Positions 1 to 5,564 of a stretch of DNA of 64,000 nucleotides are shown one piece after another. The notes below the pieces were generated by a model, which saw only the letters and a program-made list of their open reading frames with translations, ran no database searches and was not told the origin of the DNA. Source of the stretch: Betaproteobacteria bacterium. GTDB lineage: Bacteria; Pseudomonadota; Gammaproteobacteria; Burkholderiales; JAHFQX01. Position numbers and translations under genes: made by a program. How positions within the stretch are numbered: position 1 is the stretch's first letter; every line of letters starts with the position of its first letter. The stretch is taken from the NCBI GenBank assembly GCA_023259135.1, contig JAHFQX010000010.1:1-64000 (forward strand), written 5' to 3'.

Positions 1-911
1 AGGAAGCCCTGAAAACAAAGGGATTGAGACGGCTGCGCACTCGCTCTAGGTCTGCGCGGCTGCGTCAGCAGGAAGCCCTGAAAACAAAGGGATTGAGACG
101 AGCCGGATACGATGCAGTCGTTTGATTTGTTGGGTCAGCAGGAAGCCCTGAAAACAAAGGGATTGAGACCCGCTTGGAGCACAATATTGTCGAATTGCGT
201 GTGTCAGCAGGAAGCCCTGAAAACAAAGGGATTGAGACCGGTGTATGCGTTGCTGCGCGATCAGATGGCGTCAGAGGAAGCCCTGAAAACAAAGGGATTG
301 AGACGTGTGAGTGGTCGCCGACGCCTGAATCCCTGTGAGTCAGCAGGAAGCCCTGAAAACAAAGGGATTGAGACCTTGCATCTGTGCCGCCTGTCTTCGG
401 CGGCGGGGGTCAGCAGGAAGCCCTGAAAACAAAGGGATTGAGACCCTGGCTCTCCGCACACGTAGCACGGCATCGTGAGTCAGCAGGAAGCCCTGAAAAC
501 AAAGGGATTGAGACCCGAACACGTCTGGGAACACGGGGCCGAATGTTGTGTCAGCAGGAAGCCCTGAAAACAAAGGGATTGAGACCTCCGGGCACGCCTC
601 GGTGTAGGCGTGATAGTGCGTCAGCAGGAAGCCCTGAAAACAAAGGGATTGAGACGCACTCATTCCAGGCCCTGAAATCCTCAAAATGCGTCAGCAGGAA
701 GCCCTGAAAACAAAGGGATTGAGACGCGCGCCTCGTTGTCGCGGCGCACCAACTCCAGCGCGTCAGCAGGAAGCCCTGAAAACAAAGGGATTGAGACGCG
801 GCTTGCGTGATTGCCTGGAGTAGAGACGTGGGTCAGCAGGAAGCCCTGAAAACAAAGGGATTGAGACCGTCCCACAGCTTGGCCTTGCCACGGGGCTGGG
901 GTCAGCAGGAA
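1..911 (+). CRISPR. CRISPR array: 13 repeats (first truncated by the window edge) plus a terminal 11-nt repeat remnant; repeat GTCAGCAGGAAGCCCTGAAAACAAAGGGATTGAGAC (36 nt), spacers 31-36 nt
   Basis: Repeats read at 1-30 (partial), 64, 134, 203, 270 (35 nt, 1-nt deletion), 339, 409, 479, 550, 620, 690, 762 and 832; remnant at 901-911. Repeat 3' end ATTGAGAC resembles a type III 8-nt crRNA 5' handle; internal CCCT...AGGG stem. Confidence 0.98.
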
Positions 912-1066: not shown

Positions 1067-1254
1067 GCGGCCCGCTCCGCGTCTGGCGGTCTTCCTGGCC
1101 CCGCATCCCGCGCCGCCCGTCTTACCGCCCGGCATGGGCGCTGCTGACCGGTGGGCTGAAGCGCTCGAATAGTTCCGTTTCCCTCCTTTGCCCGTCGTCC
1201 CACGGCAAGCTTGTCGCACTGGCATTGGCGCCAGGGCCAGCTTATCTTCTTTCC

Positions 1255-1542
1255 ATGAACGACGCGGCGCGAACCTTGTTTCTAGTGTGTTACGACATCG
1301 GTAACCCGAAACGCCTTTATCGGGTGCATAGATATTTACTCGGCTACAAGGTCGGTGGCCAGAAGTCGCTTTACGAGTGCTGGCTGACACCGGCGGAACT
1401 GCGCCAGATTCGCCAGACGCTCGAGGATCTGATCGATCCGACGCAAGACCGGGCGCATATCTTCCAGCTTGACCCGCGCATGAAAATCGAGGGGCTGGGG
1501 TTGGCGACGCACCCGCCAACCGACGCATTCATGATCGTTTGA
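1255..1542 (+). CDS. cas2: CRISPR-associated endonuclease Cas2 (copy 1)
   Basis: MNDAARTLFLVCYDIGNPKRLYRVHRYL...: Cas2 ferredoxin-like N-terminus with conserved YDI Asp; adjacent to cas1. Confidence 0.9.
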   Translation: MNDAARTLFLVCYDIGNPKRLYRVHRYLLGYKVGGQKSLYECWLTPAELRQIRQTLEDLIDPTQDRAHIFQLDPRMKIEGLGLATHPPTDAFMIV

Positions 1543-1556
1543 CCGAGGGCAGTGGA

Positions 1557-2549
1557 ATGACAAGCCTGTACGTGGATCGGCGCGGGGTGACCCTGAAAGC
1601 GGATGGCGAGGCGCTGGTGTTCTACGAGAACGGTGAGCGCATCGGCACTGTGCCGCTGGGACCGCTTTCCCGTGTCTTCCTGCGGGGTGATGTGACGCTA
1701 TCCTCGTCTCTGCTCGGCAAGCTGGGCGGGCGTGGCATCGGGGTCGTGGTGCTCTCGGGCCGCAAGGCGGAGCCGATGATGCTGCTCGGCCAACCCCACA
1801 ACGACGCGGCACGGCGAGTGGCGCAATACCGGCTTTCCCAGGATGCCGGGTTCTGCCTGCGCTTTGCACGGGCCATCGTTGGCGCCAAGCTACGTTCGCA
1901 GGCGGAGTTTCTGGTCGAGCGGCGCGATGTGGATCTACGTTCGCGCTACCTGCTGACGCTTTCGCTGCGCCGACTGGACAATGCCATTGCCGCAGTCGAT
2001 CAACAGGTGTCCGTCGCCTCTCTGCGCGGGCTGGAAGGAACCGGCGCCGCGGCCTATTTCGATGGCTATGGGGAGTTGTTGCCGGAACGCCTCAAGTTCC
2101 AGCGGCGCAACCGGCGGCCGCCGAAAGACCCCGCCAACGCCGCTCTTTCGCTCGGCTATACGCTGCTGCATGCCGAGGCGGTGCTGGCCCTCTACGGCGC
2201 CGGGTTCGATCCCTTCATCGGCTTCTATCACGCGCTGGATTTCGGCCGCGAGTCGCTGGCCTGCGACATGGTCGAGCCGCTGCGAGCGGAAGTGGACCGG
2301 CATGTGCTGAAGCTTTTTCGCGGCGAGAAACTCCGCCCGGAAGATTTCTCCAGCATGGATGGCGGCTGCCTGCTGGGTAAGGCGGGGCGCGCTCGCTTTT
2401 ATGGTGAATGGGAGCCGTTGGCCGAGCGCCTGCGCAAGCGGCTGGAGGAGGCCATCTCCGATATGGCGGCGGCGGTGGAGCAAATCGGCGGGGTAAATAT
2501 GCCGACGCCCGATCCGGAAAACGCCATCAATGCCGAAGAGGCGTTCTGA
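1557..2549 (+). CDS. cas1: CRISPR-associated endonuclease Cas1
   Basis: MTSLYVDRRGVTLKADGEALVFYENGERIGTVPL...; Cas1 signatures including LSLGYTLLHAEAVLALYGAGFDPFIGFYHALDFGRESLACDMVEPLR. Confidence 0.95.
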   Translation: MTSLYVDRRGVTLKADGEALVFYENGERIGTVPLGPLSRVFLRGDVTLSSSLLGKLGGRGIGVVVLSGRKAEPMMLLGQPHNDAARRVAQYRLSQDAGFCLRFARAIVGAKLRSQAEFLVERRDVDLRSRYLLTLSLRRLDNAIAAVDQQVSVASLRGLEGTGAAAYFDGYGELLPERLKFQRRNRRPPKDPANAALSLGYTLLHAEAVLALYGAGFDPFIGFYHALDFGRESLACDMVEPLRAEVDRHVLKLFRGEKLRPEDFSSMDGGCLLGKAGRARFYGEWEPLAERLRKRLEEAISDMAAAVEQIGGVNMPTPDPENAINAEEAF

Positions 2550-2551
2550 AT

Positions 2552-2845
2552 ATGAGCGAACGCGCGTTCGTCGTCGGCTACGACATCGCCAACCCGCGCC
2601 GCTTGCAGCGCGTACACCGGGAGATGTGCAAGCATGCCACTCCGCTGGAATACAGCGTTTTCCTGCTGGTCGGAGATCGCCGGGCGAAAGACCTCTGCCT
2701 GGCGAGAATGGCCGGCCGGATCAAGAACAACGAGGACGACGTGCGCTGTTACCCGCTGCCCGTGCGGGGCTTCCAGGGCCGAATCGGGCGGGCTAGCCTG
2801 CCCCTCGGTATCCAATGGACGGGATTGCCGGCGGATATTGCGTGA
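2552..2845 (+). CDS. cas2: CRISPR-associated endonuclease Cas2 (copy 2, divergent)
   Basis: MSERAFVVGYDIANPRRLQRVHREMCKHATPLEYSVFLLVGDRRAKDL...: Cas2 family; shares YDI.NP.RL.RVHR with copy 1. Confidence 0.88.
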   Translation: MSERAFVVGYDIANPRRLQRVHREMCKHATPLEYSVFLLVGDRRAKDLCLARMAGRIKNNEDDVRCYPLPVRGFQGRIGRASLPLGIQWTGLPADIA

Positions 2846-2908
2846 ATGCCGGACGGTGGCAAGCTTTCCATGCTGGAATTGCCAACCGGCCACGGATACC
2901 ATGCCGGC

Positions 2909-3283
2909 ATGAATATGCAAAAGCCCATTTCGCTGGCCCAAAAACAGCATCGGCCGCCAGGGTCCGGAATCACCTGGTTTGTCTCCCGCCACCCCGGCGC
3001 GATCGAATGGGCGAAGCGGAAGCGATTCGCCATCGACTGCTGGGTCCGGCATCTCGACCCGGCCGAAGTCGCCGCCGGCGATACTGTTATCGGCTCGCTG
3101 CCGGTGAATCTGGCCGCCACGGTTTGCCGCCGCGGGGCGCGCTATTTCCACCTGTCGCTTGTAGTGCCGGCGGAATGGCGCGGGCGCGAGCTTTCGGCAA
3201 ATGAACTGTTGGCCCTCGCCGCGCGCATTGAGCCGCATCACATTGAGCGGATAGTGGACGATTTCTCGTTGGAGGTTGCATGA
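2909..3283 (+). CDS. csx16: CRISPR-associated protein Csx16 (VVA1548 family; putative cOA ring nuclease)
   Basis: ITWFVSRHPGAIEWAKRKRFAIDCWVRHLDPAEVAAGDTVIGSLPVNLAATVCRRGARYFHLSLVVPAEWRGRELSANEL matches the Csx16/VVA1548 pattern from memory. Confidence 0.88.
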   Translation: MNMQKPISLAQKQHRPPGSGITWFVSRHPGAIEWAKRKRFAIDCWVRHLDPAEVAAGDTVIGSLPVNLAATVCRRGARYFHLSLVVPAEWRGRELSANELLALAARIEPHHIERIVDDFSLEVA

Positions 3284-4455
3284 ACCATGACACTCAGGTC
3301 TGCTTAATTTCCGCGCAGGCCATCCCGAACTTGTTGCCGGCCCTTGACGAGCTATGGCGGCCGCGCCGCGTGGTGCTTGCGACCACCCCTGACATGGCCG
3401 ACCGCGCGGGGTACCTGGAGCGTATTCTCGGGCGACGCGGAATTGTGACCGAGCGGCTTCCCATCAGGGACGCCTACGACTATTTCGAGGTCTATGACAC
3501 GTTCTTCAACTTTATCGAGCGAGAGACAGTCGAAATCGCCCTGAACGTTACCGGGGGCACCAAAATCATGGCGATGGCGGCCCAAGAGACTTTTCGTGAC
3601 GCAAGGAAGCCGGTGTTCTACGTCAACGCGGAGACCGACGAGGTTCTGGTGCTTGGCGACCGTGCGCGCAGCGCCTCGCTGTCCGTCAAGATAAAGCTAC
3701 CCGATTTTCTGGAGGCGCACGGTTACACGTTCGCCAATCAAGCACGGCCGGCCAAGCCAAACATTACCCGAGAGCAATCCGACCTGACCCTTCGGATCGT
3801 CGATGGCGTCGAGAAATTCGGCCCATCGCTCGGCGAGTTGAACCATATCGCCGCGCAAGCCAAGGGTTCGCTGATTGGCAAGTTGGACGAGCGCCAAATG
3901 GACTCGATCAATCTCAACGAGGTTATCGAGCTATTTGTAGAGCGTGGCCACGTCCGGCGCTCGGGAGACACGCTTCGCTTTGTATCCGAGGATGCACGCA
4001 GTTTTGTCGGCGGCGGCTGGCTGGAGCAGCATGCTTTCAAGGCGATGTCCGATTTGGCGGGCACGCATTACTTCGCCGATTACGGTATGAACATGAAGGT
4101 CTTGGCGCCGAACGGCGCTACCTTGAACGAAATCGATTGCGCATTTTTGCATCGAAACACCCTTCATCTCATCGAATGCAAGGCCGCCAATCTGGCCAAC
4201 AAGGGAAGCACCGGCGACGACAAGGGAACGGAGTCGATCTACAAGCTTGAAACCCTGCTTAAGCTGGGTGGCCTGCGCACCCGTGGGATGCTGATCGACT
4301 ATCGAGGCCGGCTCTCGATCTCGGACGGTAAAGGCGACAGGAATCGGGTTGAGGCAAATCTCGCCCGGGCCAAGGCGACTAATATCCGCATCGTGTCCGG
4401 TTGCGCCATCAGGACGCTGAAGAGTGAAATCTCGCAATGGATCAAGTCAGCATGA
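3280..4455 (+). CDS. Card1/Can2-like protein (DUF1887-type): N-terminal CARF plus C-terminal PD-(D/E)xK nuclease
   Basis: CARF-like IALNVTGGTKIMAMAAQETF; nuclease motif LNEIDCAFLHRNTLHLIECKAANLANK. Confidence 0.85.
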   Translation: MNHDTQVCLISAQAIPNLLPALDELWRPRRVVLATTPDMADRAGYLERILGRRGIVTERLPIRDAYDYFEVYDTFFNFIERETVEIALNVTGGTKIMAMAAQETFRDARKPVFYVNAETDEVLVLGDRARSASLSVKIKLPDFLEAHGYTFANQARPAKPNITREQSDLTLRIVDGVEKFGPSLGELNHIAAQAKGSLIGKLDERQMDSINLNEVIELFVERGHVRRSGDTLRFVSEDARSFVGGGWLEQHAFKAMSDLAGTHYFADYGMNMKVLAPNGATLNEIDCAFLHRNTLHLIECKAANLANKGSTGDDKGTESIYKLETLLKLGGLRTRGMLIDYRGRLSISDGKGDRNRVEANLARAKATNIRIVSGCAIRTLKSEISQWIKSA

Positions 4456-5564
4456 ATTCGCCTGATTTTTCCCGCCGCGTCCTTCTCGCCGTCACCGGAC
4501 TGACGCCGCAGATCGTCACCGAGACGCTCTACGCGCTGGCGGTTGCCCCGACTTCTCCGTGGATTCCAACCGAAATACGGCTAATCACCACCGCTGAGGG
4601 GGCCGAACGGGCCCGGTTGTCGCTGCTTGATCCGAAGGAGGGGCAGTTCCATGCGCTTTGCCGCGATTACGGCCTAAGCGGCCAGATAGCCTTTCCGCCG
4701 GAAAACATCGTGGCCATCCGCGACGCTTCCGGCGCGCCGCTCCCGGATATCCGCACCCCGGAAGACAATACCCTCGCCGCCGATACCCTGCTGGCGGAGG
4801 TCCGCGATCTGTGCGCCGACGACTCGTGCGCCCTGCACGTGTCGCTCGCCGGCGGCCGCAAGACGATGGGGTTCTTTCTCGGCTACGCGCTCTCGCTGTT
4901 CGGCCGGCCCCAGGACCGATTGTCCCATGTGCTCGTCAATGCGCCATTTGAGGCGTTGCGAGACTTTTATTACCCTCCCGCCGCGCCGTGCGTGCTGCAT
5001 ACTCCCAACGGCCGCCCGATCCATACGGCCGACGCCCAGGTCATGCTGGCCGAGATTCCCTTCGTGCGCCTGCGCGAGGGATTACCCCGTGAGGCGCTGG
5101 CTCGCGGAGCGCCCTTTGCATCGCTGGTTTCCACCGCCCAAATGGCCATTGACCCGCCAACGCTGCGCTTCGATATTCCAAAAAGGCAAGTCTGGTGCGG
5201 CACCCAGCCAGTCAAGCTACCCCCTGCCCTGTTCGCCTGGTATGCCTGGATGGCGGAATGCCGCGTGGCTCGTTGCGGCGAAGATGGTTTTTTGCGATAT
5301 ACCGAGCAATCCCCCGACCGTTACCTGGCGATCTACCAGACGGTGGTCGGCCGAAATCATCCAAGTCTGGAAAAGGCGCGCCGGGCCGTAAAAAATGGCC
5401 TGGAACCCAGCCAATTCGAGCAGAACCGCTCGAAAATCAATCGCCGGCTGGCCGCTTCGCTATCGCTGGCCGCCGGGCCTTACAAGGTGTGTAGCCAAGG
5501 CCGGCGCTCATTCACGCGCTACGGCATCGCGCTACCGCCGGACCGGATTTTCATCAAGGGGTAG
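4452..5564 (+). CDS. NE0113-family (TIGR02584-type) CRISPR-associated CARF protein, often annotated 'ring nuclease Csm6'; C-terminal winged-helix-like region
   Basis: RRVLLAVTGLTPQIVTETLYALAV N-terminus and LHVSLAGGRKTMGFFLGYALSLFGR CARF motif; no HEPN RxxxxH domain seen at the C-terminus. Confidence 0.85.
   Translation: MNSPDFSRRVLLAVTGLTPQIVTETLYALAVAPTSPWIPTEIRLITTAEGAERARLSLLDPKEGQFHALCRDYGLSGQIAFPPENIVAIRDASGAPLPDIRTPEDNTLAADTLLAEVRDLCADDSCALHVSLAGGRKTMGFFLGYALSLFGRPQDRLSHVLVNAPFEALRDFYYPPAAPCVLHTPNGRPIHTADAQVMLAEIPFVRLREGLPREALARGAPFASLVSTAQMAIDPPTLRFDIPKRQVWCGTQPVKLPPALFAWYAWMAECRVARCGEDGFLRYTEQSPDRYLAIYQTVVGRNHPSLEKARRAVKNGLEPSQFEQNRSKINRRLAASLSLAAGPYKVCSQGRRSFTRYGIALPPDRIFIKG

Follow-up and report, generated by a model that had tools for sequence, protein, structure and literature searches.

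The window, by which we mean the whole 64,000-nucleotide stretch of betaproteobacterial DNA analysed here, carries half of one type III-A (Csm) CRISPR locus, namely its array, adaptation genes and accessory genes. Within this half-locus, the NE0113-family protein is probably a DNA-binding regulator that senses cyclic oligoadenylate (cOA) and controls the operons of the system, most likely as their activator. By its arrangement the gene cluster is ordinary. What may be new is NE0113 as a regulator with a matching palindromic promoter element; the six family calls themselves hold. The features are as follows (positions in the window, with strand where one applies):

1 to 911, plus strand: CRISPR array, 13 repeats of 36 nt, repeat GTCAGCAGGAAGCCCTGAAAACAAAGGGATTGAGAC
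1204 to 1215: predicted palindromic operator GGCAAGCTTGTC, upstream of cas2A
1243 to 1248, plus strand: -10 box TATCTT of the cas2A promoter, 39 nt from the palindrome start
1255 to 1542, plus strand: cas2A, first Cas2 paralogue (PF09827, E 5e-15)
1557 to 2549, plus strand: cas1 (PF01867, E 3e-74)
2552 to 2845, plus strand: cas2B, second, distinct Cas2 paralogue (PF09827, E 1e-8)
2858 to 2869: predicted imperfect palindromic operator GGCAAGCTTTCC, upstream of csx16
2897 to 2902, plus strand: -10-like box TACCAT of the csx16 promoter
2909 to 3283, plus strand: csx16, cA4 ring nuclease family, probable start moved from 2846 to 2909
3280 to 4455, plus strand: Card1/Can2-type nuclease, CARF and PD-(D/E)xK domains, overlapping csx16 by 4 nt
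4437 to 5564, plus strand: NE0113-family protein, proposed transcription regulator, overlapping card1 by 19 nt

The preliminary description had read the six same-strand genes after the array as Cas2-Cas1-Cas2 followed by three families linked to cOA. Six plus-strand ORFs do lie there, Pfam supports all three adaptation genes, and PF09652 (Csx16), CARF_Card1 with Card1_endonuc, and Cas_NE0113 were all matched; in the Pfam and NCBIfam scans all six family matches are far above chance. The same description saw no effector complex in view and proposed an unusual, self-contained set detached from Cas10. The complex is out of view because the window starts at a contig end, inside the array: base 1 of the window is base 1 of contig C39, which cuts the first repeat. 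Another repeat has a 3-nt deletion near 270. At its trailer end the array closes with a partial repeat (901-911); its leader end lies off the contig. A comparison of the array with phage genomes gave no match.

A profile search of the same genome found csm1-csm5 on another contig, C54, with a Cas10/Csm1 match to TIGR02578 (E 4e-194) and Csm2-Csm5 all above the NCBIfam cut-offs. The preliminary description had allowed for a genome with no Cas10, which is not the case: the Cas10 of C54 has an intact GGDD cyclase motif (AGGDDFF, read directly) and also an HD motif (HDLGK). A search for Csm1 on plasmids gave no match at E 1e-30. We infer that C39 and C54 are neighbours in the genome and that the assembly broke within the array or close to it, parting the interference half, csm1-csm5, from the window. 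The contigs stop between both halves, and cas6 was not found, probably because of the assembly gap; in one relative (L050), cas6, array and csm genes are complete in one locus. Relatives on a single contig have the csm operon, the array, cas2-cas1-cas2, csx16 where present, the effector and ne0113.

A synteny count shows that the arrangement is routine: csx16-card1-ne0113 are consecutive in 16 of the 80 NE0113 loci, and csm genes lie on the same stretch in 55. A comparable gene order was already printed in 2013 for the type III-A locus of Gallibacterium anatis, csm1-csm5-cas6-csx16-csm6-csx1-cas2-cas1-cas2 (PMC3554606). Type III-A loci of this species and of Nitrosomonas (L052, L058, L079) have the gene families of the window and share with it cas2-cas1-cas2, csx16 beside CARF genes, and an array adjoining the adaptation genes; the window differs in being split over two contigs and in the missing cas6. 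A stand-alone unit on the adaptation genes, with one cOA-activated nuclease and two off-switches working independently of a Cas10 complex, is extremely improbable. It could draw on Csx16 belonging to an active cA4 ring nuclease family, on the ring nuclease associated with Can1-2 effectors in 66% of single-effector loci (PMC12409355), on a window without any csm gene, and on a relative with the same gene order (L051), in whose genome (a MAG) no match to Csm1 turned up. However, the window starts at a contig end, csm genes are nearby in most related loci, and the genome of the window has csm1-csm5, with a GGDD Cas10, preceded by the same promoter element as the genes in the window. We rejected the stand-alone module, which csm1-csm5 on C54 and the single-contig relatives largely refute.

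The promoter common to the related loci consists of a palindrome, yGGCAAGCTTGCCr, followed by a -10 box at fixed spacing. A -10 box begins at +39 from the palindrome start in 64 cases (other offsets average 2.3), and no -35 consensus was found in the promoters carrying the palindrome, which is centred near -45, just upstream of the promoter core. Of 51 loci, 43 have the sequence CAAGCTTG upstream of ne0113 (at most 8 in shuffles). Two close relatives (L045 and L051) lack it on the stretch examined. In the 2.58-Mb genome of the window, the pattern GGCAAGCTT-N30-TANNNT has exactly three matches, before cas2, csx16 and csm1, on both contigs; the probability that all three fall at the CRISPR system by chance is about 1e-7. 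A copy with one mismatch precedes csm2. A literature search gave no report tying the palindrome to CRISPR.

The NE0113 protein matches PF09623 (Cas_NE0113; E 3e-44, 151.7 bits against a cut-off of 23) and TIGR02584 (E 8e-71, 238.4 bits against 80.65), the latter called Csm6 in NCBI annotation; the family is also annotated as a ring nuclease. Domain scans gave no match to HEPN, the C-terminal ribonuclease domain expected of Csm6, and Pfam and NCBIfam scans gave none to the Csa3 family. The AF2 models (pLDDT 92 and 89) have an N-terminal CARF domain (about residues 10-215) and a C-terminal OmpR/PhoB-type winged helix (about residues 240-375). The CARF domain matches that of Cad1 (E 6e-7) and resembles the ring nucleases Crn1/Sso2081 and Sis0455 less. 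Foldseek matches of the C-terminal domain are almost uniformly OmpR/PhoB-family DNA-binding domains with weak E-values (0.07-1), and the strand-helix order of the model is that of this type of winged helix. Judged from these models, NE0113 looks like a signal-sensing DNA-binding regulator, not a HEPN nuclease. The earlier picture, in which an effector sits between two off-switches, probably does not hold for NE0113, given a model that joins CARF to a DNA-binding domain and the operator that these loci appear to contain. Among the CARF proteins linked to Cas10, some have a helix-turn-helix, yet are no transcription factors. NE0113 was predicted in 2014 as a possible transcription regulator (PMC4012209), so the regulator idea alone is not new. 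One scan gave at least 547 relatives; a search of viral contigs confirmed none there. The family is present in 25 of the 35 Cas10-positive genomes of the class sample, in which only matches with E<1e-15 were counted as Cas10 because PF22335 alone gives many weak matches, probably to GGDEF-type proteins.

The palindrome tends to go with NE0113: it was found in 86 of the 106 loci with the gene and in 5 of the 18 without, and also where Card1 or Csx16 is absent. We weighed whether another factor, host or CRISPR-linked, reads the palindrome, while NE0113, as a ring nuclease or sensor of the CARF type, uses its winged helix to dimerise or to contact proteins. The ring nuclease annotation of the family would fit, as would the likeness of its CARF domain to Cad1 and, less so, to Crn1/Sso2081 and Sis0455. 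So would three Cmr-type genomes (G009, G273, G191) with the palindrome near cas genes and no detected NE0113, where no NE0113-like C-terminal domain was found near the palindrome either. Yet none of the nine type III-A loci without NE0113 has the palindrome, every exact match to the full pattern in the genome of the window belongs to the CRISPR system, unlike what a global regulator would give, and the best association with operator variants is that of residue 333, where the predicted recognition helix begins. The latter association comprises only four independent contrasts, with too few phylogenetically independent pairs. A strict rule of Lys/Arg-to-G contact for residue 333 fails at CACAAGCTTGTG loci, and we therefore claim only an association. 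The palindrome is missing from five divergent NE0113 loci in other parts of the phylum, and a search of 10-bp palindromes revealed no alternative operator there. We regard a different reader of the palindrome as quite unlikely; NE0113 itself would bind it, under the control of cOA.

The direction of this control would be activation. Class II activators bind near the position of the palindrome, and a site at this place in promoters without -35 consensus makes activation the most likely mode. Repression, in which cOA would free the promoters from apo-NE0113 or cOA-bound NE0113 would shut the system off after infection, would be backed by the same motif and fold evidence. It would fit equally well the predicted autoregulatory site before ne0113 (in 32 of the 75 promoters with an ORF), and Csa3b of Sulfolobus represses some CRISPR genes (PMC8844856). 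Still, the palindrome does not lie over the -35/-10 region or the start site, and this position and the missing -35 consensus suit activation better; we consider a repressor unlikely.

In the activator circuit that we propose, the Csm complex on target RNA would make cOA, most likely cA4 because of the partners of the complex. Can2/Card1 would be the nuclease activated by cOA, and Csx16 the cA4 ring nuclease resetting it. NE0113, presumably dimeric, would be neither effector nor primarily off-switch: as a CARF sensor with an OmpR/PhoB-type DNA-binding domain it would bind the palindrome before cas2-cas1-cas2, csx16-card1-ne0113, csm1 and csm2, and most likely activate the interference, accessory and spacer-acquisition operons. 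Signalling by cOA would then tune the expression of interference, effector, ring nuclease, NE0113 itself and spacer acquisition. The palindromic element precedes operons of most related loci, and an infection signal may therefore control immune-gene transcription. We give slightly less than even chances to a broader, tentative proposal: in many proteobacterial type III loci, this one included, NE0113 would sense the cOA made by Cas10 and switch on these promoters. Expression of interference, effector, ring nuclease and Cas1-Cas2 would then rise together, and recognising an invader already known would directly induce bacteria to acquire spacers.

A close parallel for the NE0113 model is archaeal Csa3 (of type I-A and other systems), in which CARF is likewise fused to a C-terminal winged helix. 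Csa3 binds cA4 and is tied to the promoters of CRISPR and adaptation genes (PMC8844856, PMC8699464). NE0113 differs in its bacterial origin, its place inside type III loci, its OmpR/PhoB-type winged helix and a CARF family closest to Cad1. The latter, a CARF-adenosine deaminase of the CARF5 group, has the closest solved CARF domain, but a deaminase where NE0113 has the winged helix. CalpL, a SAVED-Lon protease, acts by releasing a sigma factor, whereas NE0113 would bind DNA directly. In a bacterial type III system, CalpL/CalpT/CalpS lead from cA4 to a response at the level of transcription (PMC12751052). Should NE0113 prove to be a cOA-responsive regulator, public annotation gives a widespread family the wrong name. 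Whether type III signalling in bacteria feeds back on cas expression and spacer acquisition can be tested with a single protein and a 45-bp promoter. Type III operons in draft genomes can also be recognised by the element, which here linked C39 and C54 as one regulon.

The accessory pair is a new member of known effector and ring nuclease families, with no essential difference. Csx16 matches PF09652 (E 3e-34, 117.6 bits against a cut-off of 25) and TIGR02620 (115.9 bits against 46), and for another member of its family cA4 ring nuclease activity has been shown by experiment (PMC12409355). Its start is probably 2909, because the promoter element at 2858-2902 puts the ATG there and the Csx16 domain begins after it. 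The card1 product matches CARF_Card1 (PF23400, E 2e-12) and Card1_endonuc (PF09002, E 2e-17); its best PDB match is Can2 (7bdv, E 7e-36), and alignment to this structure shows an intact D...ECK active-site motif (NEID...IECK). Among the adaptation genes, two paralogous Cas2 proteins flank cas1; cas2B is below the TIGR01573 cut-off, and the cas2A transcript is possibly leaderless, its ATG lying 51 nt from the palindrome start.

Pfam, NCBIfam and PADLOC agree with the six gene families named in the preliminary description of the window: Cas2, Cas1, a second, divergent Cas2, Csx16, a Card1/Can2-type CARF nuclease, and an NE0113-family protein. The alignment of the nuclease with the solved Can2 (7bdv; E 7e-36) spans the NEID...IECK active site. 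Thirteen copies of a 36-nt repeat make up the array; the repeat ends in ATTGAGAC and was found on no other contig of the genome. The set had been described as having no effector complex in view, but base 1 of the window is base 1 of contig C39 and falls within the array, which the contig end cuts, and csm1-csm2-csm3-csm4-csm5 lie on contig C54 of the same genome (2.58 Mb, 99% complete, 86 contigs). The Cas10 encoded there has both an HD motif, HDLGK, and GGDD, the motif of the cyclase; our search for cas6 found none. What is missing is most likely the array together with its flank, because three loci of other genomes show the joined gene order. In L050 (Sulfurisoma), a single contig carries csm5 and cas6 with a MazE-PIN pair between the two, the array, cas2-cas1-cas2 and csx16, followed by a possible CARF-HEPN gene, whose Pfam matches are weak and below threshold, and by ne0113. 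L052 and L058 each show an unbroken series of csm, array, cas2-cas1-cas2, card1, and ne0113. The reported module is an ordinary accessory set of a type III-A locus, truncated where the contig ends. By eye, C54 (L002) also has two small ORFs resembling a DUF4160/DUF2442-type pair between csm2 and csm3 (3737-4231), and it ends inside a nucleotidyltransferase-like ORF downstream of csm5 (1-136, minus strand).

Nor is the arrangement unusual, as had been thought. At least 547 relatives were recovered when GTDB genomes were scanned with an NE0113 alignment. In the best 80 loci, csx16-card1-ne0113 are consecutive in 16, csm1 comes after ne0113 in 31, and csm genes occur on the stretch around ne0113 in 55. 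Within the class, NE0113 was found in 31 of 369 genomes. A strong match to Cas10 is present in 25 of the 31 and in 10 of the 338 others (Fisher 3e-25); Csx16 occurs in 19 of the 31 and a Card1-type protein in 18. A Gallibacterium locus with the order csm1-csm5-cas6-csx16-csm6-csx1-cas2-cas1-cas2 appeared in a 2013 paper (PMC3554606). Csx16 has been confirmed as a family of cA4 ring nucleases. Can1-2 effectors have no such activity of their own, and in 66% of their single-effector loci a ring nuclease accompanies them (PMC12409355). From these counts, the published locus and this pairing, we conclude that the arrangement is routine. Cas1 is flanked by two clearly different Cas2 paralogues (window 1255-1542 and 2552-2845), an order kept in nearly all fully viewed relatives (L050-L107) except L101, where both cas2 genes are upstream. 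Each paralogue has its own conserved motifs and both retain the YD motif; a heterodimeric Cas2 core is conceivable, and we found no discussion of one in the literature searched.

The NE0113 family is publicly annotated as 'CRISPR-associated ring nuclease Csm6'; we found no HEPN domain in it. Its AlphaFold2 model is confident (pLDDT 92), and the N-terminal part best matches the Cad1 CARF domain (Foldseek E 6e-7; the profile match is weak). The C-terminal domain, modelled by itself (pLDDT 89), has as best PDB matches the winged-helix domains of OmpR, BaeR, VicR, PhoB, YycF, CadC, and KdpE; their E-values are weak (0.07-1), and nearly all top matches come from one family. These models suggest that NE0113 is probably a transcription regulator, as a 2014 review had already proposed (PMC4012209). 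It would work like Csa3, the archaeal CARF and winged-helix regulator of CRISPR genes (PMC8844856), although it is not Csa3 by sequence.

A candidate operator precedes these genes. The word CAAGCTTG lies upstream of ne0113 in 43 of 51 related loci, when shuffles gave at most 8 for any 8-mer. The consensus of 72 sites preceding ne0113, cas2A, csm1, csm2, csx16, or csm3 (cas2A being the first cas2 gene) is the palindrome [CT]GGCAAGCTTGCC[GA] and, at a constant spacing after it, a -10 box, T39 A40. A42. T44. When sites were chosen without reference to annotation, 64 had TANNNT at offset +39, whereas the mean for other offsets was 2.3. The palindrome is centred near -45, and no -35 consensus is visible in the aligned promoters. 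Several transcripts may be leaderless, because start codons cluster at +51/+52. The window has two copies of the element:

1204-1248, palindrome and -10 element before cas2A (ATG at 1255)
2858-2902, palindrome and -10 element before csx16 (ATG at 2909)

For both genes the predicted transcription start coincides with the start codon, as in many relatives, so that their translation may begin on leaderless mRNAs.

The window's genome, which was outside the motif discovery set, has exactly three matches to GGCAAGCTT-N30-TANNNT, before cas2A, csx16, and csm1, on both C39 and C54; a further copy, before csm2, has one mismatch. Three random sites would all fall within the ~13 kb of this system with a probability of about 1e-7. 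Of 106 loci with NE0113, 86 have the palindrome; of 18 Cas10 loci that lack NE0113, 5 have it (Fisher 1.4e-5, ignoring kinship among loci). None of nine type III-A loci without NE0113 has the palindrome, and neither Card1 nor Csx16 is required for its presence. Three Cmr-type genomes bear it with neither NE0113 detected nor an NE0113-like C-terminal domain found near it, and it is absent from five divergent NE0113 loci in other parts of the phylum. In relatives, such promoters also stand before genes outside the labelled set, namely RAMP (Cmr-type) genes, cas6, and an ssb gene, and before some ORFs that are apparently unrelated or spurious. As far as the literature searched shows, neither the promoter element nor its probable link to NE0113 has been described.

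In the mechanism we propose, target RNA would activate Csm/Cas10, the resulting cyclic oligoadenylate (probably cA4) would activate Card1/Can2, Csx16 would remove the messenger, and NE0113, bound to it or not, would act at the palindrome. Promoter sequences favour activation as the predicted action, because the palindrome lies upstream of the -35 position and a -35 consensus is lacking. Several loci use one operator variant throughout, such as GACAAGCTTGTC in L069 and CGCAAGCTTGCG in L170. Of the 375 NE0113 residues, the one best associated with the operator's outer bases is residue 333, which lies in the predicted recognition helix, in its N-terminal half; it ranks first at identity caps 0.9 and 0.75 and second at 0.65. 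With only four independent contrasts on the tree, the association is no more than suggestive.

In L046 (5989-6298), from a MAG titled Bordetella parapertussis (a doubtful name), a close NE0113 relative lies beside a broken csm1 fragment that is still preceded by an intact palindrome, a decaying type III-A locus. In L174 (7386-7964), an NE0113 locus, a gene for a single-strand DNA-binding protein has the palindrome GACAAGCTTGTC and a -10 box in front of it and is a possible extra member of the regulon.
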